Source of the DNA: Planktothrix sp. PCC 11201
GTDB taxonomy: Bacteria; Cyanobacteriota; Cyanobacteriia; Cyanobacteriales; Microcoleaceae
Direction: 5' to 3'
Length of the DNA stretch: 64,000 nt
NCBI RefSeq assembly: GCF_900009135.1
Contig: NZ_LT797693.1
Location: 518,787-582,786 of the forward strand
Numbering within the stretch: the stretch's first letter is position 1; each line of letters opens with the position of its first letter. Under the pieces are notes generated by a model. That model saw nothing but the letters and a program-made list of their open reading frames with translations. It was not told the origin of the DNA and did no database searches. The translations under genes and the position numbers were made by a program. Below are positions 24,798-33,262 of the stretch, in pieces.

Positions 24798-26057
24798 TTA
24801 ACTCATTATTTCTTTAAAAAATGCGATCGCATCTTTTAGAGCTACAATAAAAACATCAATTTCTTGTTTAGTATTGTAGAAATATAAACTCGCTCTGGCG
24901 GTGGAACTTAAGCCTAAATAACGATGTAAAGGTTGGGTACAGTGATGTCCTGAACGAATCGCCACCCCGGAATCATCTAACATGGTGGATAAATCATTGG
25001 CATGAATCCCATCCACGCTAAAAGACGCTAAGGCGGCTCTCCCTTCTCCCTTAGCATTGGGTTGGGGGCCATAAAGTTTTAATTCAGGAATTTCTCGCAA
25101 TCTTTCAAATAAATAGGCCGTTAATTCATGTTCATAATCTTCTATTTTGTCCATACCAATTGACGTTAAATAATCAATCGCTGCCCCTAAAGCAATTGCT
25201 TCTCCAATCGCCGGAGTTCCCGCTTCAAATTTATGGGGTAATTCCCCCACCGTGAAATGATCTAAAAACACCTCAGCAATCATTTCTCCTCCCCCAAAAA
25301 AGGGCGGCATGGCTTCTAATACCTCTAATTTGCCGTATAAAAAGCCGATACCCGTAGGAGCGCACATTTTATGACCCGATGCCACTAACCAATCACAATC
25401 AATTTTCTGCACATCTAAAGCCTTATGGGGCGCACTTTGGCAAGCATCAATTAATACTTTTGCACCGTATTGATGACTAATTTTAGTAATTTCTTCAATC
25501 GGATTAATACAACCCAACGTATTAGAAATATGAACAATAGAAACTAATTTGGTTTTGTCAGAAATCAATGTTTTAAAATGTTCTAAATCAAATTCTTGAG
25601 TTTCTGTTAACTCGACAAATTTAATCACCGCTCCAGTTTTTTGAGCGACCATTTGCCAAGGAACTAAATTACTATGATGTTCCATTACACTGAGAATAAT
25701 TTCATCTCCGGGTTTTAAAGTATTTAAACCCCAGGAATAGGCTACAATATTAATAGCTTCACTGGCGTTGCGGGTATAGACAATTTCTTTGTAGGATTGA
25801 GCATTAATAAATTGGGCAACTTTTACTCTAGCTGCTTCATAAGCATCCGTGGCTTTTGCACTTAAAACGTGAACCCCTCGATGCACATTAGAATTATACT
25901 TTTGATAATATTCTTGAATGGCATTTAATACCGCTAAAGGTTTCTGAGAAGTGGCGGCATTATCTAAATAAACCAAGGGATAACCGTTGATTTCTTGATG
26001 TAAAATGGGGAAATCTTGACGGACGCTTTCAGCTAATGTTTTTTCTTGAGTTAACAT
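24798..26057 (-). CDS. sufS: SufS cysteine desulfurase
   Basis: 419 residues, the group II cysteine desulfurase. It removes sulfur from cysteine with PLP and supplies it for Fe-S cluster assembly on SufBCD. The PLP lysine is in [10 protein letters not shown] near residue 230 and the catalytic Cys is in [11 protein letters not shown] near residue 372. It is last in the sufB-C-D-S minus-strand operon, 87 bp after sufD across a 14-bp-arm hairpin. Regulation is probably by the divergent SufR. Confidence 0.97.
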
Positions 26058-26096
26058 AATTTTTAATATCCTTTAATACAATTAATAAATCCCTTC

Positions 26097-26142
26097 GTTG
26101 TTGGGCTTTAGCCCACTCTTTTTAGGATTAAAGCCCAACAAC
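26097..26142. repeat. Inverted repeat between sufD and sufS
   Basis: GTTGTTGGGCTTTA (26097-26110) and TAAAGCCCAACAAC (26129-26142) are perfect 14-bp arms with an 18-bp loop. In the transcript this would form a strong hairpin that could tune the sufS level relative to sufBCD. A related arm (CTTCGTTGTTGC/GCAACAACGAAG) at 44571-44625 suggests a dispersed repeat family. Confidence 0.75.
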
Positions 26143-26144
26143 AG

Positions 26145-27524
26145 TTAACTAAAGTCGGTGCGACAGGAAACGCAACGGGATAAAACTTGGGTTAATGTTG
26201 GTGATGGTAATTTACCTAAAATTTCTGCCGCAAAAGCATCAATTAAGAGGTGACGACTCATCTGTTCACTTAACCCCCGACTCCGCAAATAGAAGACTTC
26301 ATCTGCTTCTAATTGACTGACGGTAGCCCCATGGGAACATTTAACATTATCCGCCACAATTTCTAACTGGGGTTTAGTGTCTATTCTTCCTTTGGAAGAT
26401 AGCAATAAATTCCGACTCAGTTGATTAGCATTGGTGAACTGTGCTGTTTGGGGTACAAACACTTTACCATTAAAAATGCCATGAGCCTTGTCGTCAATAA
26501 TACATTTATGCACTTGATTAAATGTACCATGTTGATGATTGAGCATCATGGAACTGTGGGTATCCGCTAACTGTTCACCTCCAATTAATGTTAATCCATT
26601 GAGAGTGGTTTCGGTTCCTTCCCCCCGTTGATAAACTTCTAAATTGTGGCGAGATAGTTTAGATCCTAAACTAATAGCATGGCAAGTATATTGGCTATTT
26701 CGAGCTTGAAAAATAGCATTTTTACCAATATGAAATGCTGATCCTGCACCCCGTTGAACCCTTGTATGGATAACTTGGGCGTTTTCTTCTAGGTAGATTT
26801 CTGTGACTGCATTAGTAAAATATGGTTGAACTTTTACCCGATCTGAACATCCGAAAACTTCGGCGGTTGCATAATGTTCAATTAAGGTAGTTGAACTTCC
26901 GGTTTCTGCTACAATTAATGTTCTGGTTTGATTGATCACCGGCAGGTTATCCGGTAAGGCAATAAATAATAAATGAATTGGGTCTTGAATTATTTTATTT
27001 TTGTCAACCCAGAGGACGGCGGCATCATTTAACCAGGTGGAATTGAGGGTAGCAAAAACGTCTTGATTTCCCTGTTGTTGACTGAGATAGTCAGGAAGAC
27101 GATCTCGAAATTGTTCAGGAAGTTCTCCTAAATTCCCAACAAAAACACCCTCGGGAATTTCTGTAATATCAGATAGATGGGGCGCATAAATTCCATTGAC
27201 AAATACAATTCGTCTATGGGCGGCTTCGGGTAATATTAAAGAAGCGATCGCTTGATGCTCTAACTGAACAAAATTAGCCACCTCAAAGCGATGTTCTAAT
27301 AATGGGGATAAATCGGTAAACCGCCATTCTTCATCCCGTTTAGTAGGAATTTCTAATTCCTTGATCCAAGTTAAAGCGTGATCTCGAATGTTTTGCAATT
27401 GAATGGCAATTTCCGACCCAGGGGGATAGGGAAAAGACCGTTTAGAAAGTCCCTCTTGAATTTGTTCTAACAGATGGTTTAAATAGGAGACTTCCCGTTT
27501 TTCTTTGACTGTAATATTATTCAT
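26145..27524 (-). CDS. sufD: SufD, Fe-S scaffold subunit
   Basis: 459 residues of the SufBD beta-helix fold. SufB, SufC and SufD form the cytoplasmic SufBC2D complex that assembles Fe-S clusters. Family features are the WRFTDLSPLL motif, TLIGGEQLADTHSSM and DNVKCSHGATV near the C-terminus. The start ATG overlaps the sufC stop by one base (TAATG), so the genes are translationally coupled. Length is normal for SufD. Confidence 0.96.
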   Translation of the reverse strand: MNNITVKEKREVSYLNHLLEQIQEGLSKRSFPYPPGSEIAIQLQNIRDHALTWIKELEIPTKRDEEWRFTDLSPLLEHRFEVANFVQLEHQAIASLILPEAAHRRIVFVNGIYAPHLSDITEIPEGVFVGNLGELPEQFRDRLPDYLSQQQGNQDVFATLNSTWLNDAAVLWVDKNKIIQDPIHLLFIALPDNLPVINQTRTLIVAETGSSTTLIEHYATAEVFGCSDRVKVQPYFTNAVTEIYLEENAQVIHTRVQRGAGSAFHIGKNAIFQARNSQYTCHAISLGSKLSRHNLEVYQRGEGTETTLNGLTLIGGEQLADTHSSMMLNHQHGTFNQVHKCIIDDKAHGIFNGKVFVPQTAQFTNANQLSRNLLLSSKGRIDTKPQLEIVADNVKCSHGATVSQLEADEVFYLRSRGLSEQMSRHLLIDAFAAEILGKLPSPTLTQVLSRCVSCRTDFS

Positions 27525-28306
27525 TAAACCCCCACCATAGATTTGGCGACAACATCATCATAACCCTGTTCTTCTAACTCTAAAGCCAGTTCTTTTGTGC
27601 CTGTTTTAATAATCCGTCCGTCTGACACAACATGAACATAATCAGGTACAATATAATCCAGTAACCGTTGATAATGGGTAATCAATAATAGGGCGTTATT
27701 TTCATTCGCTAATTGATTAACTCCACTGGCAACAATTCGCAACGCATCAATATCTAAACCCGAATCTGTTTCATCTAAAATCGCCAATTTAGGCTCTAAT
27801 AAAGCCATTTGTAAGATTTCATTGCGTTTTTTCTCCCCCCCGGAAAAGCCTTCGTTAACACTGCGTTCTAAAAATTCATCCCGCATTTTTACAATATCTA
27901 GTTTTTCTCGGACTAATTCATCAAAATCAAAGGCATCTAATTCTTCGAGTCCTTTGTGTTTTTGATGGGCATTATAAGCTACTCTCAAAAAGTCTAAATT
28001 ACTCACCCCCGGAATTTCAATCGGATATTGAAATGCTAAGAAAATCCCTGCCAAAGCCCGTTCTTCCGGTGCTAATTCTAATAAATCTTGCCCTAGAAAG
28101 GTAATTTCGCCTCCTGTAACTTGGTAGCTAGGATGTCCGCTTAAAACCTTAGAAAAAGTGCTTTTACCCGAACCATTTAAACCCATAATTGCATGGATTT
28201 CTCCGGCTTTGACTTCTAAATTAAAGCCTTTGAGGATTTCTTTATCATCAATATTAGCCGTCAAATTTTTAACGGATAAAATCACTTCGCTGTTCTCTTT
28301 AATCAT
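27524..28306 (-). CDS. sufC: SufC, Fe-S assembly ATPase
   Basis: 260 residues, an ABC-type ATPase that works without a membrane domain. Walker [10 protein letters not shown], the signature FSGGEKKR and Walker [13 protein letters not shown] are visible; [15 protein letters not shown] is specific to SufC. It powers SufBD cluster assembly. Its stop shares a base with the sufD start. The 109-bp gap to sufB holds AACTGATAACTGATG-type repeats. Confidence 0.97.
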
Positions 28307-28366
28307 GGTTGTTTGTTGTTTGTTTTTTGTTGTTGGCGAGCGGGAACCCTCGCACTACTCGACTAA

Positions 28367-28417
28367 AAACTGATCACTAATAACTGATAACTGATGACTG
28401 ATAACTGATAACTGATT
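28367..28417. repeat. Heptanucleotide tandem repeat (ACTGATA)n
   Basis: About seven imperfect copies of AACTGAT (ACTAATAACTGATAACTGATG pattern) fill the sufB-sufC gap. Variants are at 39891-39932 and 55940-55960. Confidence 0.85.
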
Positions 28418-29852
28418 AACCAACGGTTCCTTCTAATTTTAAGCTCAATAATTTATCCGCTTCGACGGCAAATTCCATCGGCAATTTATTGAACACATCT
28501 TTACAGAAACCGCTAATCATCATAGACACAGCATCTTCGGCGGAAATTCCCCGTTGGGAAAAATAGAAAAGTTGGTCTTCTCCAATTTTAGAAGTAGAGG
28601 CTTCGTGTTCAACTTTGGCGGTATTATTTTCCACTTGAATATAGGGAAAAGTATTGGCTTGCGCCCGATCTCCGATTAACATAGAATCACATTGGGAGTA
28701 ATTTCTTGCCCCAGCCGCTTTCGGCCCCATTTTGACTAAACCGCGATAACTATTGGAGGACTTTCCAGCAGAAATTCCTTTAGAAATAATCGTGCTGCGG
28801 GTATTTTTGCCAATATGAATCATTTTAGTTCCGGTGTCTGCTTGTTGTTTATTATTTGTCAGCGCCACAGAATAAAATTCACCCACTGAATTATCCCCAA
28901 CTAATAGACAACTGGGATATTTCCAAGTAATAGCAGACCCGGTTTCTACCTGTGTCCAAGAAATCTTAGAATTGACTCCTTTACATAATCCCCGTTTGGT
29001 GACAAAGTTATAAATTCCGCCCTTGCCTTCTTCATCTCCGGCGTACCAATTTTGCACCGTTGAATATTTGATTTCCGCATTATCTAAAGTCACCAATTCC
29101 ACCACAGCGGCGTGCAGTTGATTCGTGTCAAACATCGGGGCAGTACAGCCTTCTAAATAGGTGACCGAACTGCCTGATTCTGCTACAATTAAGGTGCGTT
29201 CAAACTGCCCCGAATCGCCATTGTTAATCCGAAAATAGGTAGACAAATCCATCGGACATTGTACCCCTTTCGGAATATAAACAAATGACCCATCACTAAA
29301 AACAGCCGAGTTCAAAGCGGCGAAGAAATTATCGCTAATGGGAACCACACTACCCAAATATTTTTCAATCAGTTCAGGATGTTCTTTAACTGCTTCGGAA
29401 ATGGAACAGAAAATCACCCCATCTTCAGCTAATTTTTCTTTAAAGGTGGTGGCAATTGAAACACTATCAAAAACCGCATCTACCGCCACATTAGATAGGC
29501 GCTTTTGTTCGTTTAAAGGGATGCCTAATTTTTCAAAGGTTTCTAATAAAGTCGGGTCAACTTCTTCTAAACTGGTTTTTTTCTTTTCAACTTTGGGCGC
29601 GGAATAGTAGATAATAGATTGATAGTCAATGGCCGGATAGTTGACATGGGGCCAAGTAGGTTCCTCCATCTTCAGCCATTGTCGATAGGCTCTCAGACGG
29701 AAGTTGAGCATAAACTCCGGCTCGTTTTTTTTAGCTGAAATCAGGCGCACAACATCCTCACTCAGTCCCCGAGGGATGGTGTCTGACTCGATATCGGTGA
29801 CAAAGCCGTATTTGTACGGTTGGTTGACCAGGGTTTTAACAGAAGCACTCAT
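28416..29852 (-). CDS. sufB: SufB, Fe-S scaffold subunit
   Basis: 478 residues, normal for SufB. It is the cluster-carrying subunit of the SufBC2D complex; [17 protein letters not shown] and [19 protein letters not shown] are typical. It starts the minus-strand suf operon. Start ATG at 29852, with the divergent sufR 154 bp away and two CAAC-N6-type sites between them. No truncation is seen. Confidence 0.97.
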
Positions 29853-29908
29853 AAGGTTAAATTTAGTGTTCGACGGTTCTCAAAGGATGACAGACGGGTG
29901 GTAGGCTG

Positions 29909-29942
29909 TAGACTTAAGCAACAGATTTGTTACTTAAGTCTA
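29909..29942. promoter_or_regulatory. Candidate SufR operator 1, 34-bp near-perfect palindrome
   Basis: Arms TAGACTTAAGCAACA and TGTTACTTAAGTCTA, 4-bp centre, with one mismatched pair in 15. The core at 29919-29932 is CAAC-N6-GTTA, one base from the CAAC-N6-GTTG consensus reported for SufR of Synechocystis. It lies between sufB and sufR and could let SufR repress both. No promoter element is assigned. Confidence 0.7.
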
Positions 29943-29958
29943 TTTTAGGCTACATTAA

Positions 29959-29972
29959 CAACAAGTGTATTG
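29959..29972. promoter_or_regulatory. Candidate SufR operator 2
   Basis: CAAC-N6-ATTG, one base from CAAC-N6-GTTG. It begins exactly 40 bp after the first core. It is 34 bp upstream of the sufR ATG. The spacing of the two sites may allow cooperative binding. Confidence 0.5.
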
Positions 29973-30006
29973 TCAAAGTCCAAATTCATTAATTTTCGTT
30001 AAGACG

Positions 30007-30735
30007 ATGGCCACCACTCAACACCAGTCCACGAAACATGATATTCTGCAACTTCTCCTGAAACAAGCACAGGCGACGGCTCAGGAGTTAGCAGAAACCC
30101 TTGATATTAGCCCCCAAGCCATTCGTCGCCATCTCAAAGATTTAGAACAGTCGGGGTTAATTGCCTACAACTCGGTGCAGGTGGGGATGGGACGCCCTCA
30201 GCACGTTTATGAATTGACGACTCAAGGACGGGAAGGTTTTCCCAACCGTTATGATGAATTTGCAATTTCCTTTTTGGATACTTTAGCGCAAACCGTCGGA
30301 CATGAACAGGTTAGTCAAATTTTACAGAAACAATGGCAACGAAAAGCAATAGAATATCGGGAAAAAGTTGGCAAGGGTTCGTTAAAAGAACGGGTGGAAA
30401 AATTGGTAGAATTAAGAAAAGCTGAAGGGTATATGGCGGAGTGGTATTTGGTGGAGTCAGAACAACCGGATATTCAGCGAGAACGTTATATTTTAACTGA
30501 ACATCATTGTGCAATTTCTAATGTGGCGGAATCCTTTCCGAGTGTTTGTGGCCATGAGTTAGAAATGTTTGAGGAAATCTTAGAAGATTGTACGGTAGAA
30601 AGAACCCATTGGATTGTGAATGGGGAACATCGTTGTGGCTATTTAATTATCGGAGGGAACAGGGAACAGGGACGGGGAACACCGGAGGAAAAGACAGACA
30701 CAAGCCTGGGTTTATTAAATCAGTCTTTGTCATAA
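30007..30735 (+). CDS. sufR: SufR, Fe-S-sensing repressor
   Basis: 242 residues from the ATG at 30007; the in-frame start at 29965 would add a leader overlapping operator 2. An N-terminal winged helix, about residues 10-65, reads LLKQAQATAQELAETLDISPQA style. The C-terminal half has cysteines in HHCAISN, SVCGHE, EDCTVER and HRCGYLI, the likely [4Fe-4S] ligands. With its cluster bound, SufR represses sufBCDS; cluster loss relieves it. Divergent from sufB with shared palindromes, as in other cyanobacteria. A confident call. Confidence 0.95.
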   Translation: MATTQHQSTKHDILQLLLKQAQATAQELAETLDISPQAIRRHLKDLEQSGLIAYNSVQVGMGRPQHVYELTTQGREGFPNRYDEFAISFLDTLAQTVGHEQVSQILQKQWQRKAIEYREKVGKGSLKERVEKLVELRKAEGYMAEWYLVESEQPDIQRERYILTEHHCAISNVAESFPSVCGHELEMFEEILEDCTVERTHWIVNGEHRCGYLIIGGNREQGRGTPEEKTDTSLGLLNQSLS

Positions 30736-31204: not shown

Positions 31205-31999
31205 TTAGTGTGTAATCCGACCTTCTAAGTGACCATATTGGGTATAATGGGAGAACGCACTGGTAATAACTCCACTGTTAATAGCTTGTGCCACATCAGG
31301 ATTATGTGCTAAATAAGCTCCTGTGTTAAACTGGTTGCTGGGGTTTCGTCCTTCATCAGCCCCCGACATGACAAAATGTTCAAAACCCGAAGTAAATGCA
31401 CCCGCTTGGACGGCATTTGCCACATCGGGATTTGTATTTAAGTAGTAGGATTCATCAAAGAATTGATTCGGTGAACGTCCTTCTGTTTCCCCCGATTTAA
31501 GATACTGTTGTAAACCCGAAGATAAGGTTCCTTGAGAGATGGCTGCATTGACATCAGGATTAGTATTACGATAATATTCCTCATCAAATATTTCAGTTAA
31601 ATTCTGTTGATATTGAGGATTTTTCAGGACATCATCCCAATGGGTTCCAGTCAAATTATCCCAACCATTATTATCAGAAACACCCGTTATTGGATTAACA
31701 CCAGTTGCGGGAGTTATTGAGGTAGCACCTGTTGCTGCAAGGGATTTATAATAATCATCTGAACTATTGTTATCCCAGCTATTATCATAATACAGACCCG
31801 TTGTTGGATTAACACCAGTTGCGGGAGTTATTGAGGTAGCACCCGTTACCGCCAGGGATTTATAATAATCATCTGAAGTGTTGTTATCCCAACTATTATC
31901 ATAATAAAGACCCGTTGTTGGGTTAACGCCTGATACGGTCATGGATTTATAATTATCATCTGAACTATTGTTATCATTATTAGATTCATACAGACTCAT
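31205..31999 (-). CDS. Repeat protein with two internal repeat types
   Basis: 264 residues. The N-terminal 130 residues hold roughly three copies of a 38-residue unit built around TGLYYDNSWDNNSSDDYYKS and TGATSITPATGVNP. The C-terminal half has three 42-residue units of the form FDEEYYRNTNPDVNAAIS ending SGETEGRSP, the NPDV repeat common in cyanobacterial secreted proteins next to RTX or DUF4214 parts. There is no signal peptide. Near-identical DNA repeats suggest recent slippage expansion. It follows the dioxygenase gene by 110 bp on the same strand. A surface or exported role is likely but unproven. Confidence 0.75.
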   Translation of the reverse strand: MSLYESNNDNNSSDDNYKSMTVSGVNPTTGLYYDNSWDNNTSDDYYKSLAVTGATSITPATGVNPTTGLYYDNSWDNNSSDDYYKSLAATGATSITPATGVNPITGVSDNNGWDNLTGTHWDDVLKNPQYQQNLTEIFDEEYYRNTNPDVNAAISQGTLSSGLQQYLKSGETEGRSPNQFFDESYYLNTNPDVANAVQAGAFTSGFEHFVMSGADEGRNPSNQFNTGAYLAHNPDVAQAINSGVITSAFSHYTQYGHLEGRITH

Positions 32000-32109
32000 G
32001 ATGTTTTCTCCCGTTGCGTTTAAATCGAAAATATGTGAGAATTTGAGAATAAAGCCCCGATGTGTACAGAAGTTTGATAAAACTCCCCTACATTTAAATT
32101 AGATTTGGG

Positions 32110-32781
32110 TTAAATATCAGCCCATTTTCGCAATAAATTTGCGTGACTTTTGGCAATTAAGTCAAATTCTATAGTCTTGCCATATTGTTGGAAAATACTT
32201 CTACGGGCGGTATCTAAATCAAACAATATTTCTCGTTGGGATGGGTCACGAACTAAACTTTGAATCCAAGTAACCGCCGCCCACCGAGTCCCTTCAGTTA
32301 CCGTTTCCACGCGATGCAAAGTCGAAGACGGATAAACAATCGCCGAACCTGCATCTAACTTAAAACTCTGTTCCCCTAGTGAAGTTTCAATCACTAATTC
32401 TCCTCCTTGATAGGTGTCAGGGTCAGAGAGAAATAGAGTTAATGAAACATCGGTTCGAGAGATAGATTCATCCCCCATAATCGCATTATCGAAATGGGAA
32501 CCATAATACATTCCCACATCATAACGACTGAAAATAATCGGGCGGATTATTTTAGGACGTGCCGCTACTTTAAACAGTTCGTTACGTTTTAAAGCTTCGA
32601 GAACAATATTTCTCAGGTCAGAAGTAATCTCAGTATCGGTTTTAATTTGTTGATTATTTTTAACTTCTTTGACGTACCGACCAGCCGTTGTTTTCCCATC
32701 TATAAACTCAGCTTGTTGCAGTAGCGTCAAAGTTGTTTCTAGTTCTTCGGGTGTGAGAACATCTGCGATACAAAAAATCAT
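32110..32781 (-). CDS. PKHD-type Fe(II)/2-oxoglutarate dioxygenase (PiuC-like)
   Basis: 223 residues, matching the PKHD hydroxylase family. SHFDNAIM gives the His-x-Asp iron ligands and TLHRVETVTEGTRWAAVTW supplies the distal His and the 2-oxoglutarate-binding Arg. Start MIFCIADVLTPEELETTLTLLQ is typical. PiuC/YbiX relatives hydroxylate unknown substrates and are often tied to iron uptake. It begins 6 bp after the stop of a small exported Lys/Asp/Gly-rich protein, so the two are likely coupled. No TonB receptor is nearby. The substrate is unknown. Confidence 0.93.
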   Translation of the reverse strand: MIFCIADVLTPEELETTLTLLQQAEFIDGKTTAGRYVKEVKNNQQIKTDTEITSDLRNIVLEALKRNELFKVAARPKIIRPIIFSRYDVGMYYGSHFDNAIMGDESISRTDVSLTLFLSDPDTYQGGELVIETSLGEQSFKLDAGSAIVYPSSTLHRVETVTEGTRWAAVTWIQSLVRDPSQREILFDLDTARRSIFQQYGKTIEFDLIAKSHANLLRKWADI

Positions 32782-32787
32782 TGGTTT

Positions 32788-33093
32788 TTAGCCTTCTCCA
32801 CCTTCACCACTTTCTCCGCCTTCATCTTTTTTATCCCCTTTATTGTCTTTTCCTTTATCGTCTTTTTTATCATCTTTATTGTTGGTTGGAGCAGCAGCTT
32901 GTAACATTTCTGAGGAGGTAAAAGTATTCCCAGAAGTTGAAATTCCAGAGGCAATTTCTTGGATAGAATTAGATGCAGATTGGGTTGTAGAAGCATTAGC
33001 AACGTTGCCCAATCCGGCAGTTAAAACATAAGCTCCGACTCCCATCCAAATCTTAGTACGAGTAGACAGACCATTATTTTTGTTGGTATTCAT
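32788..33093 (-). CDS. Small exported Lys/Asp/Gly-rich protein (101 aa)
   Basis: 101 residues from ATG 33093; an in-frame start at 33153 would add 20 residues before a better Met. The first 35 residues carry a charged start and a hydrophobic stretch ending in ANA (GVGAYVLTAGLGNVANA), a probable signal peptide. Residues 70-101 are almost only Lys, Asp, Asn, Gly and Glu and end GGESGEGGEG. There are no cysteines. The PKHD dioxygenase starts 6 bp later, so this may be its substrate, a metal-binding peptide, or a coupled cell-envelope protein; sequence alone does not choose. No known family recognised. Confidence 0.7.
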   Translation of the reverse strand: MNTNKNNGLSTRTKIWMGVGAYVLTAGLGNVANASTTQSASNSIQEIASGISTSGNTFTSSEMLQAAAPTNNKDDKKDDKGKDNKGDKKDEGGESGEGGEG

Positions 33094-33186: not shown

Positions 33187-33247
33187 TTAGGAGGTAGAGG
33201 GAGCAGGGGGAGCAGGGGAGGCAGGGGGAGCAGGGGGGGAGCAGGAG
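33187..33247. repeat. G-rich minisatellite (GAGCAGGGG units)
   Basis: Repeats of GGGAGCAGGGGGAGCAGGGG type; the same motif family occurs as the complementary CTCCCCCTG array at 45083-45180. Confidence 0.9.
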
Positions 33248-33262
33248 AAGTCAACTATTACC

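Follow-up and report, generated by a model that had tools for sequence, protein, structure and literature searches.

The small exported protein and the adjacent dioxygenase encoded in a 64,000-nucleotide stretch from Planktothrix sp. PCC 11201 (the window) probably form a dedicated protein-modification pair. The dioxygenase would recognize the leader of the small protein and hydroxylate its Gly-Glu core, and the product would then be exported and would probably serve iron handling. We put the probability of this reading at about 0.6. As in the original prediction, made from the sequence of the window, three ORFs are found in a row on the minus strand. The 101-aa small protein (the carrier) ends with GGESGEGGEG, its gene is separated by 6 bp from the gene of the dioxygenase, and the latter is followed after 110 bp by a gene encoding an NPDV repeat protein. 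The features, in window coordinates, are:

32788-33093, minus strand: carrier, 101 aa from ATG, predicted to be exported; leader/signal peptide at the N-terminus, then a variable linker that includes a Lys/Asp stretch, and Gly-Glu units at the C-terminus
33034-33054, minus strand: leader motif KIWMGVG, residues 14-20 of the carrier (W-type leader pattern)
32791-32820, minus strand: C-terminal core GGESGEGGEG, residues 92-101 of the carrier; three Gly-Glu-x units with mixed synonymous Gly codons
32110-32781, minus strand: PKHD-type Fe(II)/2-oxoglutarate dioxygenase, 223 aa (PF13640, PF18331, NF003974; PDB relatives 3dkq and PiuC)
32284-32496, minus strand: stretch with the predicted iron ligands and the 2-oxoglutarate arginine of the dioxygenase, invariant in 14 aligned relatives
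31205-31999, minus strand: NPDV repeat protein, 264 aa, with N-terminal low-complexity repeats and C-terminal NPDV repeats (from the ORF and a comparison within the genus)

No Pfam or NCBIfam family scores above its cut-off with the carrier or the NPDV protein. In line with the lack of TonB genes noted earlier for this region, a profile search of the whole genome gave no match to the TonB plug domain PF07715. The locus adjoins what we take to be a sufBCDS-like cluster with a SufR-like HTH regulator (24798-30735), of which the HTH protein alone was run against profiles. A SufR-like gene is also found near the PKHD locus in L092, and other genes occupy that place in L038. G-rich repeats of the GGGGGAGCAG type lie just upstream of the carrier gene (33187-33250); in frame they would encode Gly-Glu-Gln and may provide raw material for new tails.

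The dioxygenase combines a 2OG-Fe(II) oxygenase domain (57.3 bits against PF13640 in Pfam, cut-off 27) with the PKHD C-terminal domain (25.5 bits against PF18331, PKHD_C, cut-off 22), which places it among the PKHD-type hydroxylases. It also scores 303.6 bits against the NCBIfam family NF003974, 'Fe2+-dependent dioxygenase' (cut-off 143). Residues H96 (32494-32496), D98 (32488-32490), H156 (32314-32316) and R166 (32284-32286) are invariant in the 14 aligned relatives. From family knowledge, we take the first three to be the HxD...H iron triad and R166 to be the 2-oxoglutarate arginine, and the active site typical of the PKHD family is thus predicted to be intact. The nearest solved structures, 3dkq and PiuC, match the protein over its full length. 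No substrate of PKHD dioxygenases was found in the literature surveyed.

Homologues of the carrier (E<0.01) were identified in 15 of 98 related genomes, and in each of the 15 one of them adjoins a PKHD gene. The two genes are on the same strand in nine genomes of the genus and in G065, and divergent in the remaining five. Six further weak matches (E 0.17-0.28; G036, G039, G041, G049, G051, G055) are likewise located beside PKHD genes. One more match at E<0.01, to the leader only (G007:C112:610377), is not; its sequence includes an ambiguous base, and it appears to be a join made in assembly.

The linkage was also analyzed in 80 named loci, collected with the dioxygenase alone, homology to the small protein not being used. 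ORFs with at least three Gly-Glu-x units lie at most 2 kb from the PKHD gene in 51 of these loci (44/71 cyanobacterial, 7/9 proteobacterial) and at most 500 bp from it in 46, and none was found at distances of 2-10 kb (911 kb). A count of Gly-Glu repeats at the DNA level had been uninformative, since G-rich intergenic repeats fit the pattern, and was replaced by this protein-level test. The carrier of the Halomonas locus L168 overlaps the PKHD gene and is not counted by the GE-only rule. A looser motif, G[ED]x, yields a single far ORF, in the same locus (GDRGEAGDR, 6.5 kb away), compared to none with the GE-only rule.

Under a relaxed rule, written after the data had been seen, 116 of the 141 distinct PKHD loci have a carrier within 2 kb, compared to 87 under the strict rule; in 25 loci none was found in that range, and no carrier ORF is found in 888 kb beyond 2.5 kb from PKHD. 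The 141 loci comprise the distinct PKHD sequences of every locus outside the gammaproteobacterial sample and were not delimited as a clade of the tree. This rule also accepts the GDVRGDV repeat of L124, where an oppositely oriented 81-aa ORF, located upstream of PKHD, has a W-type leader (KLWVGVGAFVLT) and a GDVRGDVRGDIRGDV repeat instead of Gly-Glu-x.

The pairing thus recurs across cyanobacteria and in some alpha- and gammaproteobacteria. The original prediction had stated in advance that rare co-occurrence elsewhere would make the pairing an accident; the pair was found together instead, in 15/15 genomes with a homologue and in 51/80 loci. Its proposal of a maturation pair is well supported as far as the pairing goes, by this recurrence and by the shared leaders described below, whereas the modification itself is something we infer. 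Among viral contigs, 19 matches to the pattern were seen, none of them confirmed as a relative. The genome of the window also encodes a carrier away from any PKHD gene (G000:C24:148663-148932, L266), a 90-aa lipoprotein with an F-type leader that ends with DDEGGEGGEG; the only PKHD match of the genome lies elsewhere. A relative of this protein, in L262, also has no PKHD gene nearby, and its genome holds one PKHD.

PKHD genes are present in 65 of 229 gammaproteobacterial genomes, and the loci of the best-scoring 30 of these 65, not a random sample, were read. A Gly-Glu ORF was seen in one of them, the Halomonas genome that served as the centre of the sample, and a GE carrier in none of the 29 loci outside the GE-linked subfamily. 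In the PKHD tree (151 rows with identical sequences removed, of which four were set aside because the flank was too short; FastTree as the single method), all 82 GE-linked PKHDs fall among 123 rows that are split from 28 gammaproteobacterial rows with support 98. Judging by these loci, the GE linkage is specific to one PKHD subfamily. By parsimony, the tree as a whole requires 25 changes of the linkage label, which changes often within the 123 rows, and therefore gain and loss of the Gly-Glu neighbour, as read from the tree, is common.

The Lys/Asp stretch of the carrier, stressed in the original prediction, turned out to vary even within the genus and is absent from most relatives. What is conserved is the leader at the N-terminus and the Gly-Glu-x units. 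Two leader patterns, drawn up after the carriers had been seen, were compared with control ORFs that have hydrophobic N-termini and lie more than 2 kb away from PKHD. Within the first 75 residues of both sets, the W type (K/R-[LIMV]-W) is found in 30 of 59 carriers and in none of 256 controls, and the F type (K-x-x-LFLALG, lipoproteins) in 22/59 and 12/256, respectively. Within 40 residues, the corresponding values are 26/59 and 0/256 for the W type, and 22/59 and 11/256 for the F type. A precursor with a conserved leader and a core, encoded next to a putative modifying enzyme, is the arrangement expected of a RiPP-like system, and it is the one seen here.

Beyond the leader and the Gly-Glu units, carriers vary: nothing else is present in the window protein, and others bear EfeO/imelysin, histidine-phosphatase or GHL domains or RTX calcium repeats. 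Five RTX carriers keep TKIWTGVG or TKIWTSIG without a hydrophobic core (best 13-residue mean from -0.25 to 0.01), and RTX carriers in L104, L254 and L256 have a shortened F-type leader that matches the leader of the adjoining small carrier. GHL, an unnamed all-helical domain of about 205 residues with invariant H/E/D positions (L214-L240), is not matched by any Pfam or NCBIfam family in those members that were scanned. It is carried by lipoproteins, in many of which an HhH-like region precedes it, and occurs in genomes of a single cyanobacterial order and in a few others. Its predicted fold (pLDDT 97.8) yields only weak matches in a fold search, and no profile match to imelysins was obtained.

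GHL proteins provide a natural control, for which 30 loci were sampled from 68 GHL-bearing genomes out of 386. In 27 GHL proteins without PKHD in the 1.5-kb flanks, neither Gly-Glu units nor either leader pattern was found; two of these 27 genomes (G188, G220) hold a PKHD gene elsewhere. Two GHL proteins with Gly-Glu units have PKHD at most 2 kb away, one of them being truncated by a contig end. Since RTX carriers keep a non-hydrophobic leader, and since GHL proteins without a nearby PKHD lack both the leader and the Gly-Glu units, the leader patterns suggest a function of the leader for the enzyme in addition to one in export.

The smallest form of the pair is observed in one small-genome cyanobacterial family, presumably Prochlorococcus and marine Synechococcus, in which 21 of 23 genomes with PKHD matches were read. 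In 16 of the 21, a peptide of 75-85 residues that ends with C[IV]P[IV]GEGENCW is encoded 49-95 bp downstream of PKHD. Thirteen of these peptides have the F-type leader pattern, and the leaders of the other three are similar by eye. All 16 loci contain, divergently upstream of PKHD, a gene with a GRHYNTD motif that we take to be FutA/IdiA-like. As for the other genomes that were read, four have Gly-Glu carriers and one has none that could be seen.

Neighbouring genes were compared using two samples, 140 of 199 ORFs located at most 1.5 kb from PKHD and 140 of 256 ORFs located farther off. Near PKHD, there are seven PepSY_TM proteins, seven solute-binding proteins, three DHOR proteins and three Cu-oxidases, with at most one of each among the far ORFs; histidine kinases (HATPase_c) are mildly more common near PKHD (six versus three). 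Moreover, in several carriers from other genomes the Gly-Glu region is part of an EfeO or imelysin protein. In L263 the gene order is, by resemblance to profile-tested loci, presumably FutA-like, PKHD, Gly-Glu imelysin and DHOR-like. To judge by these neighbours, the PKHD loci of several lineages have an iron context. Fur boxes are not enriched in PKHD-locus regions (10/138, compared to 26/465 in controls), and the upstream region of the window carrier has a Fur-box score of 11 of 19 (p 0.79).

The part of the original prediction that concerned the NPDV protein holds for the gene downstream, and the partnership was observed only within the genus and in one other genome of the order. The NPDV gene follows PKHD in seven of eight loci of the genus with enough downstream sequence (the exception is L032; L037 was left out, as its sequence ends too early). 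The protein also follows PKHD in L040, with GESGESGES repeats in the corresponding region, and by its position it may represent a second substrate specific to the lineage. In its N-terminal half, the NPDV protein of the window consists of a low-complexity repeat (DNSWDNNSSDDYY..VTGV.PTT) with a copy number that varies from species to species. This half is predicted to be disordered, and the mean pLDDT of the whole protein, 43.6, is too low for assigning a fold.

The structure of the tails bears on two other explanations. Repeats of the GGGGAGCAG type are common in these genomes and fit the GE-x pattern at the DNA level, one being situated just upstream of the carrier gene, and Gly-Glu tails might arise beside PKHD from such G-rich cyanobacterial repeats by chance. 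Among adjacent Gly-Glu units, 163 of 340 have the same Gly and Glu codons, which is above the expectation, and therefore some repeat expansion, as seen in the codons, does occur in the tails. However, the other 177 differ in synonymous Gly or Glu codons, and an artefact would leave unexplained the distribution of distances and the shared leaders; these three observations refute accident as a full explanation, and we consider it extremely improbable. The glycine period of three, present in many carriers, might instead point to a collagen-like structural protein with Gly-x-y stretches, PKHD acting as a lysyl or prolyl hydroxylase. The window dioxygenase does match procollagen-proline dioxygenase (E 0.048), and there are weak collagen matches of L104 (17.1 bits against a cut-off of 27.2) and of L040 to SclB (E 1.4e-5, but 24.3 bits against 325). 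Yet Glu, instead of Pro or Lys, is the residue that stays constant, the number of units in many cores is just three, picocyanobacteria have GEGENCW as their core, and the window protein has no collagen match up to E 1 in Pfam or NCBIfam, which makes a collagen-like protein very improbable.

The chief rival is that carriers and PKHD are merely co-regulated neighbours under iron stress, the carriers binding metal by plain Glu repeats and PKHD acting elsewhere, for instance on an imported iron complex. Relatives of PKHD are indeed iron-regulated: according to the accessible part of one study, a PKHD gene that adjoins a TonB receptor gene in Caulobacter is up 15.65-fold when iron is low and 26.39-fold when fur is mutated (PMC3751524), and piuC is termed a direct Fur target in the portion available of another (PMC9561280). 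Many cores space Glu as ExxE, and iron is bound by D/ExxE motifs in HbpS, with such motifs implicated also in Ftr1p and PmrB, as stated in the available text of PMC3754957. The picocyanobacterial core has GEGE and not ExxE, and therefore one iron-ligand geometry does not fit all carriers. Co-regulation leaves unexplained that RTX carriers keep a non-hydrophobic leader, that leader types match between adjoining carriers, and that the GHL domain has neither Gly-Glu units nor leader where PKHD is not nearby; we regard it as unlikely, yet as an alternative to be taken seriously.

If carrier and dioxygenase are a modification pair, PKHD would bind the conserved leader (KIWxGxG here, K-x-x-LFLALG elsewhere) of the newly made carrier in the cytoplasm and hydroxylate the Gly-Glu-x core before export, most likely at the constant Glu or at its Gly. 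The carrier would then leave by the Sec or the lipoprotein route, and RTX and NPDV carriers probably by type I secretion. Outside the cytoplasm, it would most likely bind iron or pass it on, either as a short tail alone, as in the window, or fused to an uptake domain such as EfeO/imelysin. A more specific version, which we consider possible but doubtful, is that the cores are ribosomally made iron ligands: PKHD would hydroxylate Glu of exported cores, e.g. to 3- or 4-hydroxyglutamate, creating siderophore-like hydroxycarboxylate sites, in picocyanobacteria via the GEGENCW peptide beside the FutA-like gene. In that case, short peptides, lipoproteins, and EfeO/imelysin and RTX proteins would all carry siderophore-like sites.

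PKHD dioxygenases are widespread, several of them being iron-regulated, and the linkage names candidate substrates, a candidate recognition leader and a candidate target motif for them. It also accounts for carrier proteins and an unnamed domain that have no description in Pfam or NCBIfam. If correct, the proposed modification would add a 2-oxoglutarate-dependent, iron-linked class to the exported modified proteins, reaching small-genome picocyanobacteria. The pair is not described in the literature found by a search that largely left out subscription papers and preprints.

Several known systems are similar to the pair in part. The PiuC/YbiX PKHD hydroxylases (PF13640 and PF18331; NF003972-NF003975) belong to the same family, have the same predicted active-site residues and are iron-regulated in Caulobacter and Pseudomonas. 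The window PKHD, in contrast, falls into a separate subfamily linked to Gly-Glu carriers, which the 29 gammaproteobacterial relatives lack. Moreover, a PiuC-type gene lies beside a TonB-dependent receptor, and the plug domain PF07715 is missing from this genome. The EfeO/imelysin domain (PF09375, NF041757) is found on several carriers elsewhere, and the window carrier has no PF09375. Collagen-like proteins share the period-3 glycine beside a distantly similar dioxygenase, whereas the window tail is short and has Glu as its constant residue.

Closest among the known systems are the bufferins, Sec-exported RiPPs that are modified by MNIO enzymes and bind copper, for which preliminary evidence that the signal peptide belongs to the recognition sequence is mentioned in the accessible part of PMC12452194. 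So far as that part describes them, bufferins resemble the pair in the exported precursor adjoining an iron oxidative enzyme, the Sec or lipoprotein signal peptide as the leader, the link to a metal and occasional fusions to larger domains. The differences are the 2-oxoglutarate dioxygenase, the core without Cys in most carriers and the iron context. A bufferin is defined by an MNIO/DUF692 enzyme with a Cys-containing precursor of the DUF2282 type; the window has a PKHD partner and a Cys-free carrier without a family match. By analogy, the pair appears to work in the same way as bufferins with an enzyme of another family, without being a bufferin itself.
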